Source of the DNA: Acidobacteriota bacterium
GTDB lineage: Bacteria > Acidobacteriota > Thermoanaerobaculia > Gp7-AA8
Assembly (NCBI GenBank): GCA_021325515.1
Contig: JAJPHC010000059.1
Location: 1 to 37,509 of the forward strand
DNA: 37,509 bases
Direction: 5' to 3'
Positions within the stretch are counted from its first letter, which is position 1. Each line of letters begins with the position of its first letter. The position numbers were made by a program, and so were the translations under genes. Below the pieces are notes generated by a model. That model was not told the DNA's origin and searched no databases. It saw only the letters and a list, made by a program, of their open reading frames with translations. Shown piece by piece: positions 1-11,701 of this stretch.

Positions 1-40
1 GATAGCCGAAGCAGTTACCCACTGAAAACCACCATGCCCC

Positions 41-140
41 AGAATTCAGAATTCAGAATGAAAAATGACAGCTCGACCAGAGCAGTCGACACGTCATCGC
101 ATTCTTCATTCTGAATTCTGTAATTCTGAATTCTGAATTT
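41..140. repeat. Inverted repeat of short TTCTGAA-type units
   Basis: Bases 41-66 hold overlapping copies of AGAATTC, and 101-140 hold the reverse complement (ATTCTGAATTCTG repeated). The two arms can pair over roughly 20 bp around a loop of about 35 bases. The patch lies just past the stop of the minus-strand channel gene at 171, so it could act as a transcript-end hairpin, but there is no T-tract. It may equally be a small dispersed intergenic repeat. Bases 1-40 show nothing recognisable. Confidence 0.6.
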
Positions 141-8366: not shown

Positions 8367-8789
8367 ATGCCGAAAGAAGCAGCAGGCTGGCAATGCCCAT
8401 CCTGCGGCCGTCGATTCACGCAGCGGACGCGTGAACATTCCTGCGATCTCACCTCGCTCGACGCGCATCTCGCGCGTGCATCCGCGGAGGTCCGCGAGAC
8501 CTTCGACGCTCTGCGCGCGATGCTGAGCAGCATCGGCGCGATGCACATCAATCCGCTGAAGACGATGATCACGCTCTCGACCACGAAGAACTTCGCCGGC
8601 CTCACCATTCGCAGGACCGCGATCGACCTCGGATTCTTTCTGCCGCGGCAGGAGCGAAGCGGGCGAATCGTCCGCACCGAAAAAATCTCGGCGACGAAGA
8701 TCGCCCATCACGTGCTGCTCGCGTCGCCGGGTGACGTCGACGAACAATTGGAGCAATGGCTGCGCGAGTCGTATGCTGTCGCATCATGA
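8367..8789 (+). CDS. DUF5655 domain protein with N-terminal zinc-binding motif
   Basis: A protein of 140 aa. It opens with [10 protein letters not shown] and a following HSC, a probable zinc site (C10, C13, H25/C26). The rest matches the DUF5655 pattern: [20 protein letters not shown], then a beta-rich region ending in the [17 protein letters not shown] helix. The function of the family is not known; it resembles small single-domain proteins related to DUF1801/YdhG. A short AGGA lies 4-5 nt before the ATG. The stop overlaps the mscL start (ATGA), so the two are translationally coupled. That coupling is the only contextual hint. Confidence 0.75.
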
Positions 8790-9220
8790 GTATCGGAAAA
8801 GAATTCAAGGAATTCGCGCTGAAGGGCAACGTGCTCGATCTCGCGATCGGCGTCATCATCGGCGCGGCCTTCGGCACCGTCGTGAAGTCGTTCACCGAAG
8901 ACATCCTGATGCCGCCGCTGGCACTCCTCACCGGCCATCCGGATTTCTCGAACAAGTTCATCGTGCTCAGCGGCGGTCATTTCGACACGCTCGCACAGGC
9001 GAAGGCCGCGGGCGCCGCGACGCTGAACTACGGCCTCTTCATCAACGCGGTGATCAATTTCCTCCTGGTCGCGTTCGCAGTGTTCATGGTGGTGAAGTGG
9101 TTCAACAAACTGCGGCGAGAGCCCGAGCCCGCCGCGCCGAACACACGAGAGTGTCCCGAGTGCCTCTCCCCGATTCCCCTGGGCGCCAAGCGCTGCAAGT
9201 TCTGCACTGCGGGGGTGTAG
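8786..9220 (+). CDS. mscL: Large-conductance mechanosensitive channel MscL with C-terminal zinc ribbon
   Basis: Releases osmolytes when membrane tension rises on hypo-osmotic shock. The protein is 144 aa from the ATG at 8786 (overlapping ATGA with DUF5655). The N-terminal amphipathic helix and TM1 read [20 protein letters not shown], continuing [21 protein letters not shown]2 is [19 protein letters not shown]. After a short linker with PEPAAP, the tail carries two CPxC/CxxC pairs (CPEC...CKFC), a zinc-ribbon extension in place of the usual C-terminal coiled helix. Such ribbon-tailed MscL proteins occur in several phyla. The 9-bp minisatellite begins 2 bp after the stop. Confidence 0.95.
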
Positions 9221-9222
9221 GA

Positions 9223-9275
9223 ATGGGACGGATGGGACGGATGGGACGGATGGGACCGATGGGACCGATGGGCGG
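9223..9275. repeat. 9-bp minisatellite (ATGGGACSG), about six units
   Basis: Three copies of ATGGGACGG, two of ATGGGACCG and one partial copy run head to tail immediately after the mscL stop. If mscL were read through, the unit would encode Met-Gly-Arg/Pro triplets. The same unit, in opposite orientation (CCCATCGGT type), recurs at 9357-9398 and 9459-9500. The left block and the right blocks can therefore pair as an inverted repeat. Confidence 0.85.
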
Positions 9276-9300
9276 AAACAGGCAGGTTGAGTTCCCGCCA

Positions 9301-9508
9301 TCACACGATCTCGATTGCAAGCAGCGCGATGTCATCGCGCAGCACGTCAGGTTCCACCCATAGGTCCCATAGGTCCCATCGGTCCCATTCGTCCCATCCA
9401 ATTCACACGATCTCGATTGCAAGCAGCGCGATGTCATCGCGCAGCACGTCAGGTTCCACCCATAGGTCCCATCGGTCCCATCGGTCCCATTCGTCCCATC
9501 CATCCAAT
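9301..9508. repeat. Two tandem copies of the PP2C gene's 3' end, each capped by minisatellite
   Basis: Unit A (9301-9402, 102 bp) and unit B (9403-9508, 106 bp) each start with the reverse complement of the last codons and stop of the following minus-strand gene (encoding RDDIALLAIEIV-stop). A shared stretch encoding EPDVL then follows, and finally 4-4.5 copies of the CCCATNGGT unit. The real gene end at 9509 is the third member of the series. In the copies the residues before RDD read EPDVL, whereas the gene itself reads DAPP, so they are not simple duplicates of the present gene end. No gene is visible in 9221-9508. Confidence 0.85.
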
Positions 9509-11701
9509 TCACACGATCTCGATTGCAAGCAGCGCGATGTCGTCGCGCGGGGGGGCGTCGCCGCGGCGTTCGTGCAGCACTTCTGCGAGAGATGCGCATG
9601 CTTCGGAGAGCGTCTGCTTCCGCGCCGCGATGAAATGCTGCTCCAGCGACTCGAGTCCGAATCGCTCGCCGTAGAGATCCTCGTCATCGATCAGCCCGTC
9701 GCTGTACAGGACGACGCGATCGCCAGCCTGCAGCGCGACTTCGGCATCCACGAATCCATCGCCGAGGCCGAGGCCGAGGAGGGGTCCGTTCGACACGAGG
9801 CGCTCGACGGTTCCGTCGATGCGGACCACGATCGGTGCAGGATGGCCCGCGCAGGCGTAGCGCAGCGTGTCGCCATCGATCACTGCGAAGACGAGCGTCA
9901 GATATCGGCCGAACCGCTCGAACGGAAACTCACGCTCGAGCTGCTTCATGACGCGTGACGGCAGCTCGCTCGTCATCGACAGCAGGCGCTGCGACACGAC
10001 GGACGCCATCAGCACGGATGCGGCTCCCTGCCCGCTCACGTCGACGAGAAACGCCGCGCGGCCGGAGACATTGAAGATGTCGCCGCCCACTTCGAGCGAG
10101 CGTTGGAACAGCGACGCGGCATCGAAGCCGACCGCGGAGACTTCGTCCTGCAGTTGCAGCGTGCGCTGCACGTCGATCGCCGCGTTGAGATCTTCGCTCA
10201 GCTTGCGCGCTTCGATCTCCGCCGGCGGCTGCACCTGATGCTGCGGCCGCAGCAGGTCGAAGACCGTCTTGACGGGAGCGAAGGTCGCGGCCGGAACCTC
10301 GACACAGATCGTGTTCCAACCAGCCATTGCACCATTCCAGAGGCCGGGCCGCTCCAGCGCACTCAGCTCGCGCCCTTCGTACGACTTCTTCGAAATGAAG
10401 ATCGAATCAGAGTCGACGAAGCGCTCCAGATCGAACGGTTCACCGCGCCAGGAGCGGAGCCCGCAGACGAGGTCGACGGGATTGAAGTGCGTCGACGATT
10501 TGAAAATCGCGACCTGCCGCGGGTCGGTGCCGTCGACCTGCGCGGACTCGACGATCTGCACCGAGCGGACGCCGTCACTGCCCACGACCCAGAACGGCGC
10601 GCCGCCCGGCTCGCCTTCGTTGATCACGACGCCGCACACGCGCAGCGGGCGGTCGAGCGCTTCGAACACGAAGCGGCGCTTCTCGTCGGCCGTGGCCAGC
10701 ATCCGATCCGGCCGCCGCGCAAAACGAAACGCTGCCAGCGCGAGCGCGCGGTCGAGCATCGCCTCCGGCACATCCTCGCGCGAGCACGCCTCCAGCAGCT
10801 CGAACACTTCCTGCTGAATGCGGAGGAGATAGCCGATGAGGATCTGCTTCCAGCGAACGACTTCGCCATTCGCTTCATCGGGAACGATGTTGTCGATGTT
10901 CTTGATGACGACGATGTCGCCGCCGGCGAGCTGCAGGTTGCGCAGCAGCGAGCCATGTCCGCCCGGCCGCAGCAGCAACTCACCCGCCGATGTGCGGAAC
11001 GGATTGCCCTGTGCGTCGATCGCGAGCGTGTCGGTGGACGGATGCTGCTCGGAGAATGACACCTTCAGCGCGCCGCCGCGCCGCTTCCGCAGCACTTCCG
11101 GCTCCAGCATCGCGAGCGTCTCCTCGAATTCGCCGCGAAACTCCGGAGCGACCGTGAAGTGCATGCTGCACGCGTAGCGCGTTCCCTCGAGGAGCTGCTC
11201 TTCGAACGCAGTGCGCGCCTTCTCGACGCGATGAAACGGGATCAGCCCCTTCGGCTTCTGCGCGTATCCCATCTCCTCGAGCAAGGTCGCGAGCAGGCGG
11301 CGCTCGCCCGCTTCATCCTCGCCCGCAGTTCCTGCGCGTTCGCGCAACTCCGCGGCGAAGGCGAAGGCATCGAGATGCTCGAAGAACTCGCGGCCGGCAG
11401 GTGATGCAGACGGGCGCCGCTGATCCTGCAGCGCAGCGATGAGGTCCTTGAACATGCGCGTCGCGGCGCCCGACGCCGGCACGAACTTCATCACGCGGCC
11501 TGCATCGGCAGCGGCCTCGGCGCGATCGAGCAGCGAGCGCTGATCGATCTCGCGAATGCGTGAGATTCCGTCGCCGACGGTCGACGGCCGGTCGAGCCGG
11601 ATCGCCTGCGGAGGGTTGCGCAGCAGACCGATCTGCCTCTCCGCCTCTTCTCTGGTAATCCCGTGCTGAGCGAGCCGTTGAAGGTCGTCGTTGGAGAACA
11701 T
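9509..11701 (-). CDS. DUF4301 domain fused to PP2C/SpoIIE-type phosphatase
   Basis: A protein of 730 aa in one unbroken frame. Residues about 1-490 match DUF4301: FVPASGAATRMFKDL (74-87), KGLIPFH, HFTVAPE, SFSEQHPSTDT, LRPGGHGSLLRNL (244-256) and IKNIDNIVPD (266-275). The GGHG and NIDN features recall sugar-nucleotidyltransferase folds, so a nucleotidyltransferase-like fold is possible but unproven. A helical linker (EIEARKLSEDLNAAIDVQRTL) leads to a SpoIIE-like phosphatase (about 520-730) with VGGDIFNVSG, VDVSGQGAASVLMA, YSDGLID and the terminal RDDIALLAI. The metal aspartates are kept, although the usual GDYYD is GDIFN and SGHG is SGQG. Its 3' end is the template-like end of the repeat array. 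A small gene lies 21 bp upstream on the same strand. Confidence 0.83.
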   Translation of the reverse strand: MFSNDDLQRLAQHGITREEAERQIGLLRNPPQAIRLDRPSTVGDGISRIREIDQRSLLDRAEAAADAGRVMKFVPASGAATRMFKDLIAALQDQRRPSASPAGREFFEHLDAFAFAAELRERAGTAGEDEAGERRLLATLLEEMGYAQKPKGLIPFHRVEKARTAFEEQLLEGTRYACSMHFTVAPEFRGEFEETLAMLEPEVLRKRRGGALKVSFSEQHPSTDTLAIDAQGNPFRTSAGELLLRPGGHGSLLRNLQLAGGDIVVIKNIDNIVPDEANGEVVRWKQILIGYLLRIQQEVFELLEACSREDVPEAMLDRALALAAFRFARRPDRMLATADEKRRFVFEALDRPLRVCGVVINEGEPGGAPFWVVGSDGVRSVQIVESAQVDGTDPRQVAIFKSSTHFNPVDLVCGLRSWRGEPFDLERFVDSDSIFISKKSYEGRELSALERPGLWNGAMAGWNTICVEVPAATFAPVKTVFDLLRPQHQVQPPAEIEARKLSEDLNAAIDVQRTLQLQDEVSAVGFDAASLFQRSLEVGGDIFNVSGRAAFLVDVSGQGAASVLMASVVSQRLLSMTSELPSRVMKQLEREFPFERFGRYLTLVFAVIDGDTLRYACAGHPAPIVVRIDGTVERLVSNGPLLGLGLGDGFVDAEVALQAGDRVVLYSDGLIDDEDLYGERFGLESLEQHFIAARKQTLSEACASLAEVLHERRGDAPPRDDIALLAIEIV

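Follow-up and report, generated by a model that had tools for sequence, protein, structure and literature searches.

The 37,509-nucleotide stretch analysed here (contig JAJPHC010000059.1 of the Acidobacteriota assembly GCA_021325515.1; hereafter the window) carries, in the gap between two convergent genes, an array of 9-bp TGGGACSGA units that probably belongs to a dispersed family of palindromic minisatellites seated at gene stop codons. Members of this family have the form (TGGGACNNA)n, a short loop and the reverse complement of the units, making a palindromic minisatellite hairpin. We found them throughout the genome from which the window comes, anchored at gene 3′ ends, built in relatives from genome-specific units, and present in one relative at sites where a related genome lacks them. 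Copies of a gene end that accompany the window's array are a by-product or secondary event of this hairpin family. Genomes are labelled G000 (the window's own genome, 5.38 Mb in 63 contigs) and G008, G009, G014, G015 and G016 (relatives); G015 was placed in the same genus as G008.

Hairpin minisatellites at gene 3′ ends

The exact 24-mer TGGGACSKATGGGACSKATGGGAC occurred 171 times in G000, compared with no occurrence of a reversed control pattern. We examined 96 array clusters of G000, comprising a first set of 61 and a second set of 35 that consisted of covariance-model matches outside the first set; the model was built from first-set elements with 10-bp flanks. Among 129 clusters from four genomes, both unit orientations were found in 110 (2 mixed) and two clean arms in 108, with the GGAC-rich arm coming first in 101 of these 108. 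Twenty-six clusters of 70–135 bp folded at −58 to −123 kcal/mol, and 22 of these folded hairpins were taken into an alignment. The loop edges resemble GGYGGAA...TTCCRCC, and the arms covary between subfamilies (G-C to U-A at several pairs). Rfam gave nothing at its gathering score in five sources, the eight sub-threshold matches being to seven microRNA families and one small RNA family. No match was obtained when a plasmid collection was searched with the window region or a phage collection with one element. Contig ends of G000 fall in or near hairpin minisatellites at C8:100, C23:40, C30:82, C51:324 and C62:7 and at the ends of C12, C20, C34 and C43; the assembly therefore seems to break at them, and array lengths may be shortened in this draft genome.

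Genes were predicted with a custom codon-usage caller trained on the same loci rather than taken from curated annotation, and array-to-gene distances exclude clusters within an open reading frame or with the side unknown (4 of 61 and 6 of 61 in the first G000 set). Over three genome sets, 126 of 144 flanking 3′ ends lay within 25 bp of the array, with a median distance of 4 bp, compared with 25 of 88 flanking 5′ ends and a median of 52.5 bp. By set, the proportions within 25 bp for 3′ versus 5′ ends were 56/64 versus 8/38 in G000, 55/60 versus 13/28 in G008, and 15/20 versus 4/22 in G009 and G016. The second G000 set repeated the anchoring, with 41/44 3′ ends versus 8/25 5′ ends (P 2e-7). The ratio of convergent to divergent gene pairs at arrays was 20:7 in G000 and 17:1 in G008, versus 6:25 and 5:23 in array-free gaps at the same loci, and it was 12:3 versus 0:15 in control gaps for the second G000 set.

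Counts at stop-codon junctions were restricted to 3′ ends no more than 30 bp from the array. Stops in G000 often run directly into unit-like sequence (TGA-TGGGAC, TGA-TGGATGGGAC and TAG-GATGGGAC), and the period-9 identity of the gap between the stop and the first full unit was 0.38, compared with 0.26 in the last coding bases. The unit in G008 is TAGGACNNA, and at 34 of 55 3′ ends in this genome the adjacent gene terminates with the outermost TAG of the array; at 7 more of the 55, the stop is followed immediately by TAGGAC. TAG accounted for 43 of the 55 stops beside G008 arrays versus 33 of 111 control stops (P 3e-9). Where a G008 gene ends inside the array, the array's outermost TAG is used as the stop in 34 of 37 cases, whereas a random frame predicts about a third. 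Six convergent gene pairs in G008 are bridged from stop to stop by arrays of 48–110 bp.

Relatives, empty sites and hairpins of other units

Within the GTDB family, five of 18 genomes, among them G000, gave covariance-model matches, with 150 in G000, 97 in G008, 36 in G016, 27 in G009 and 8 in G014, at most 150 candidates being scored per genome and a palindrome possibly counting on both strands. In a phylum sample of 396 genomes, three (G000, G009 and G209) contained the exact 24-mer. All 97 G008 24-mers consist of TAGGAC three times, though the search pattern permitted TGGGAC, and G016 carries both TAGGAC and TGGGAC units. In G209, which belongs to another family of the phylum, a TGGGACGGA array lies at the very start of contig C32 (C32:5-100; L209-L213).

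No covariance-model match and no 24-mer was found in G015, and no two adjacent GGAC units occurred in the 139 kb of this genome that was fetched. The search for empty sites targeted 4 of 40 G008 loci, and two further loci, L217 and L247, lay within the fetched stretches. At five G008 elements both flanks align closely with G015, and in G015 the hairpin is missing each time. The gaps in G008 and G015, respectively, are 78 and 12 bp at the first element of L218, 94 and 52 bp at the first of L235, 248 and 38 bp at the second of L235, 126 and 36 bp at L247, and 107 and 26 bp at the first of L248. Less clean sites are also free of the hairpin in G015: L217, where one flank is close and G008 has 1.6 kb of extra sequence; the second elements of L218 and L248, with one close flank each; and the first element of L239, with weak colinear flanks and 571 bp versus 509 bp. 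Searches with L239 against G015 returned mostly paralogues, and the first of its three elements was the one scored. By eye, no clear target-site duplication was seen in the aligned G008 and G015 sites.

At L217 and L218 the proteins of the two genomes end at the same residue, G008 using the array's TAG as the stop and G015 a TGA, and at L248 the endings are almost the same (KARA versus KARQA). At L235, the protein ends with GLSGL in G008 versus GLLSPAE in G015; for annotation, C-termini beside arrays may, as here, be set by the element.

Hairpins with the same architecture are also built from unrelated units. Besides the 7-bp unit CAGAATT, which forms a second palindromic minisatellite in the window, the fetched DNA contains arms of GCTGAGT, AGATGGC, GGTTGCTC, AGGCTCA, GATGAAC and more, with units of 7–8 bp. 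We counted 10 in G000 (319 kb; the one at L161 is a 9-bp family variant), 17 in G008 (201 kb), 9 in G009 and G016 (88 kb), 7 in G015 (139 kb), 2 in other relatives (66 kb) and 3 in named genomes (705 kb; all in the Thermoanaerobaculaceae record L041, a run of N excluded). The loci had been chosen around GGAC arrays or by synteny, so these counts should not be taken as unbiased densities, and chance or coding repeats may account for a few of them. The median distance of such hairpins was 8 bp from 3′ ends (n = 37) and 32 bp from 5′ ends (n = 43), a less strict 3′ anchoring with no convergent bias (6 convergent, 9 divergent). Two of them, with units GAATTGT and AGGCTCA-like, lie within 1 kb at L235 (2960-3110 and 3760-3915), and both are missing in G015 (86 versus 7 bp and 93 versus 17 bp). 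The CAGAATT element is represented by 24 exact 20-mers in G000 and by none in 17 relatives searched. G015 has 7-bp hairpins of its own, with GATGAAC and GAACGCA units, some right at stop codons (L289:3805-3860, L291:12922-13002, L294 and L295).

Origin, alternatives and known systems

Because the unit is shared and genome-specific and empty sites exist, we infer copying between loci: new copies would arise from other copies, and would be tolerated since their landing place is a stop codon, which in G008 they also supply. Unit number would then change by slippage, and the hairpin may act as a bidirectional transcript end or insulator. More broadly, and with somewhat less than an even chance in our estimation, these sequences could form a class of tiny hairpin elements, selfish or domesticated, that use many unrelated short tandem units, install themselves at stop codons and are able to supply them. 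The class would have spread separately in related genomes, with a genome-specific unit, by copying untied to any known transposase.

Several observations weigh against reading the window locus as a member of a dispersed stop-codon family. Not all clusters are hairpins: units stood in a single orientation in 19 of the 129, 16 of these being in G000 and some lying at contig ends. When arms were swapped within subfamilies (25 simple elements), no extra arm-to-arm matching emerged, 746 of 2000 permutations being as good; this gave no support to arm-to-arm correction inside single elements and left covariation at the level of subfamilies only. No mobilising enzyme could be linked to the family, since none of the seven Y1_Tnp loci had paired GGAC units within flanks of about 1.5 kb. 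The hairpins showed no U-tract enrichment (T fraction 0.21 versus 0.18 in the background; TTTT at 6 of 257 hairpin edges). Arrays in G009 and G016 lacked a convergent bias (1:2 versus 8:11 in control gaps) and lay farther from the stop, with a median of about 16 bp. G000 stops showed no preference for TAG (P 0.19). At the window itself, no clear array microhomology was seen at the duplication junction.

The alternative that survives best, although we regard it as unlikely, is that these are bidirectional transcription terminators kept by selection, in which the repeats are merely how the hairpins grew and no mobility is involved. The position at 3′ ends, the convergent bias in G000 and G008 and the strength of the hairpins all agree with this, a stable hairpin just downstream of the stop codon being the very feature that such terminators present. 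Inverted repeats 3′ of stop codons are described as general in bacteria and ascribed to termination (PMC13155455). Against it, the hairpins are without U-tracts, so that any termination would not be of the standard intrinsic kind; independent origin would not easily yield one unit at about 100 loci of one genome and a different one in its relative; and G015 has empty sites. Intrinsic terminators share with the family a GC-rich hairpin after the stop codon, but the stems here are longer, there is no U-tract enrichment, and the hairpins belong to a dispersed repeat family.

It is improbable that these are REPIN-like elements moved by a RAYT transposase. REPINs are REP doublets that form hairpins (PMC3116915), and the likeness is considerable: hairpin-forming inverted arms, a mostly intergenic position, many copies, genome-specific units, and seven Y1_Tnp matches in G000. 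REP sequences likewise are extragenic, many per genome and of distinct groups in each genome (PMC3116915), and their hairpin foot is given as a GTAG or CGTC tag (PMC3733652). However, flanks of about 1.5 kb at all seven Y1_Tnp loci were free of paired GGAC units, the arms are 9-bp tandem arrays rather than single REPs, anchoring is at stop codons, and several unrelated unit families show one and the same architecture.

An assembly artefact, with repeats collapsed or chimeric in a draft genome, would fit the several contig ends that fall in or near such arrays but is very unlikely: copies and gene are not the same in sequence or unit number, and separate genomes carry the family and also show empty sites. 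DNA uptake sequences are motifs of 9–12 bp that come in species dialects and frequently form inverted pairs close to gene ends. The one-base change of unit between genomes (TGGGAC/TAGGAC) and the inverted pairs at 3′ ends recall them, but such an origin is most improbable, as isolated motifs were not in excess in the fetched DNA, a small part of each genome (G000 TGGGAC 64 versus control hexamers 82 and 41; G008 TAGGAC 6 versus 61 and 23), and the exact 24-mer is missing from 37 of 39 other genomes searched.

Other known repeats are similar in part. Mycobacterial MIRUs are presented as small, apparently mobile repeats whose insertion at a codon boundary affects the gene minimally (PMC12548453). 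A comparable arrangement is seen at L218, where the putative ATG of the next gene overlaps the last GTCCTA of the array. In the same source, however, MIRUs insert at start codons with a coupled open reading frame, whereas the hairpins here are on stop codons. When L239 (1951-2028) is compared by eye with L284 of G015, the two colinear genes appear to overlap at GTGA in G015 where G008 has an array, which is reminiscent of MIRU sites. Heptameric GGGAATC repeats of Xanthomonas and Nostoc are short tandem units, mostly intergenic and near or over stop codons; they are reported to have no association with known mobile elements, and tandemly inverted repeats are mentioned too (PMC4692102). The heptamer is treated there as a G-quadruplex sequence, whereas here we see mainly long 9-mer hairpins, empty sites in a relative and a repeat-supplied stop in G008. 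The TAACTGA repeats of Beggiatoaceae are also short, tandem and mostly intergenic, some lie over stop codons, and they are uneven among strains; unlike the present elements they are direct and mostly face start codons, with one inverted set reported (PMC4679880). Literature searches for this arrangement returned such neighbouring cases, but not the combination of tandem-unit hairpins, several unit families and the seating at, or supply of, stop codons.

Repeats that are dispersed at stop codons, and that serve as the stop codon in one of the genomes, would give a clean natural system for spread without harm to the host, in which one could also ask how tandem units and palindromes are made together. 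Thanks to the G008/G015 presence/absence pairs and the genome-specific unit, strain comparison can address the copying question.

The window locus and its gene-end copies

The features of the window are listed in Table 1. The left convergent gene, mscL, ends with TAG followed immediately by GAATGGGAC, and five TGGGACSGA units stand directly 3′ of this stop. The whole window holds 14 matches to the 15-base TGGGACSKATGGGAC with up to two mismatches, where shuffles predict 0.22.

Table 1 Features of the window discussed in the text, with strand and basis of assignment.
Feature	Position	Strand	Basis or remark
Second palindromic minisatellite, 7-bp unit CAGAATT	40–139		Beyond the 3′ end of the minus-strand gene 171–1187
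mscL (large-conductance mechanosensitive channel), left convergent gene	8786–9220	+	PF01741, E 2.7e-40; translation
Hairpin arm 1, TGGGACSGA units	9221–9276	+	Tandem Repeats Finder row 9223–9276; sequence
Loop remnant (GGGCGGAAAC...GTTCCCGCC), edges resembling loop edges of other members	9274–9300		By-eye comparison
Gene-end copy 2 (RDDIALLAIEIV-stop)	9301–9340	−	97% identity to 9509–9548; translation
Copy 2 of loop edge and arm 2 (9-mer units)	9341–9398	−	Sequence, Tandem Repeats Finder, repeat scan
Gene-end copy 1 (RDDIALLAIEIV-stop)	9403–9442	−	Offset 102 to copy 2, 106 to gene
Copy 1 of loop edge and arm 2 (9-mers), stopping 10 bp short of the gene's stop codon	9443–9507	−	
DUF4301-SpoIIE (PP2C) fusion gene, right convergent gene, apparently native end	9509–11701	−	PF14134, E 1.5e-164; PF07228, E 2e-33

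The initial annotation had described two tandem units of 102 and 106 bp that carry the last 12 codons and stop of the fusion gene among the 9-mers. This was borne out by the repeat scan, in which 9301-9400 equals 9403-9502 (offset 102, 99%), 9394-9442 equals 9500-9548 (offset 106, 98%) and 9301-9340 equals 9509-9548 (97%), and by Tandem Repeats Finder, whose 102-bp array spans 9301-9548 (2.4 copies, 95% matches), with 9-bp arrays reported for 9223-9276, 9357-9397 and 9459-9500. The same annotation had noted an opposite-strand block of 9-mers able to pair with the right-hand ones, and this also held: the 9223-9276 block is inverted relative to both right blocks, and the segment 9205-9520 folds into a long hairpin with z scores of −9.1 and −8.5 against shuffles for the two strands. 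Judged by its sequence, the left block has two possible partners, the two right blocks, and the minimum-energy fold is one of these pairings. The left block is best read as the other arm of the same hairpin.

Both copies encode EPDVL-RDDIALLAIEIV-stop, as the initial annotation had stated, where the gene encodes HERRGDAPP-RDDIALLAIEIV-stop. The suggestion that the gene end was swapped is not supported. PP2C ends in related loci share a similar GDxPxxDD-like stretch at that place, and the SpoIIE profile (PF07228) matched the fusion protein up to position 191 of 192. Because the ending of the fusion gene resembles other PP2C ends, it is the copies that would have changed and not the gene; judged from these alignments, the gene end looks native and the copies look to be without about nine codons. 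The copies appear to begin near the gene's GTGCTGC and to miss 27 bp (HERRGDAPP). One hairpin arm and the adjacent gene end seem to have been duplicated in tandem, slippage or template switching at the hairpin being the probable route; about 27 bp would have been lost in this event, and a second duplication would have followed.

Duplications of non-array sequence, scored with a strict criterion, were found at 8 of 61 first-set G000 arrays versus 8 of 1220 control windows (P 2e-7); this criterion replaced a looser one that gave 11/61 arrays and 86/1220 controls. No strict duplication was present at 47 arrays of G008 and 21 of G009 and G016 (0/68), the controls there being 9/940 and 0/420, respectively. 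A called gene end was copied at 4 of the 61 arrays (the window, L134, L145 and L148). By eye, the gene and the array at L134 both carry GTCCCATCGTC, which matches the outer arm of the array and is where the copies start, and at L145 the join lies at CGTAGG of the gene versus CATAGG of the arm. These two junctions fit slippage or template switching between the array and array-like gene-end sequence.

The initial annotation had also expected other TGGGACSGA arrays to abut gene 3′ ends and to carry copies of them. The first part stands widely, as given by the 3′-end counts above, but copied ends are rare (4/61). The association between minisatellite and gene end is real and general, and gene-end capture is occasional. 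That the array is a mobile patch with gene-end capture as its function is therefore very hard to credit in spite of the four copied ends, since 57 of the 61 first-set arrays and 68 of 68 in G008, G009 and G016 are without one in the strict test.

No orthologue covering the whole DUF4301-SpoIIE protein was found as a single match in 19 relatives searched so as to date the window's own duplication, the best cover being residues 4–491. The best named relatives of the fusion protein carry, for the most part though not in every case, an Acidobacteriota label. Among 80 named loci kept, the fusion has a near-full-length match only at L040.

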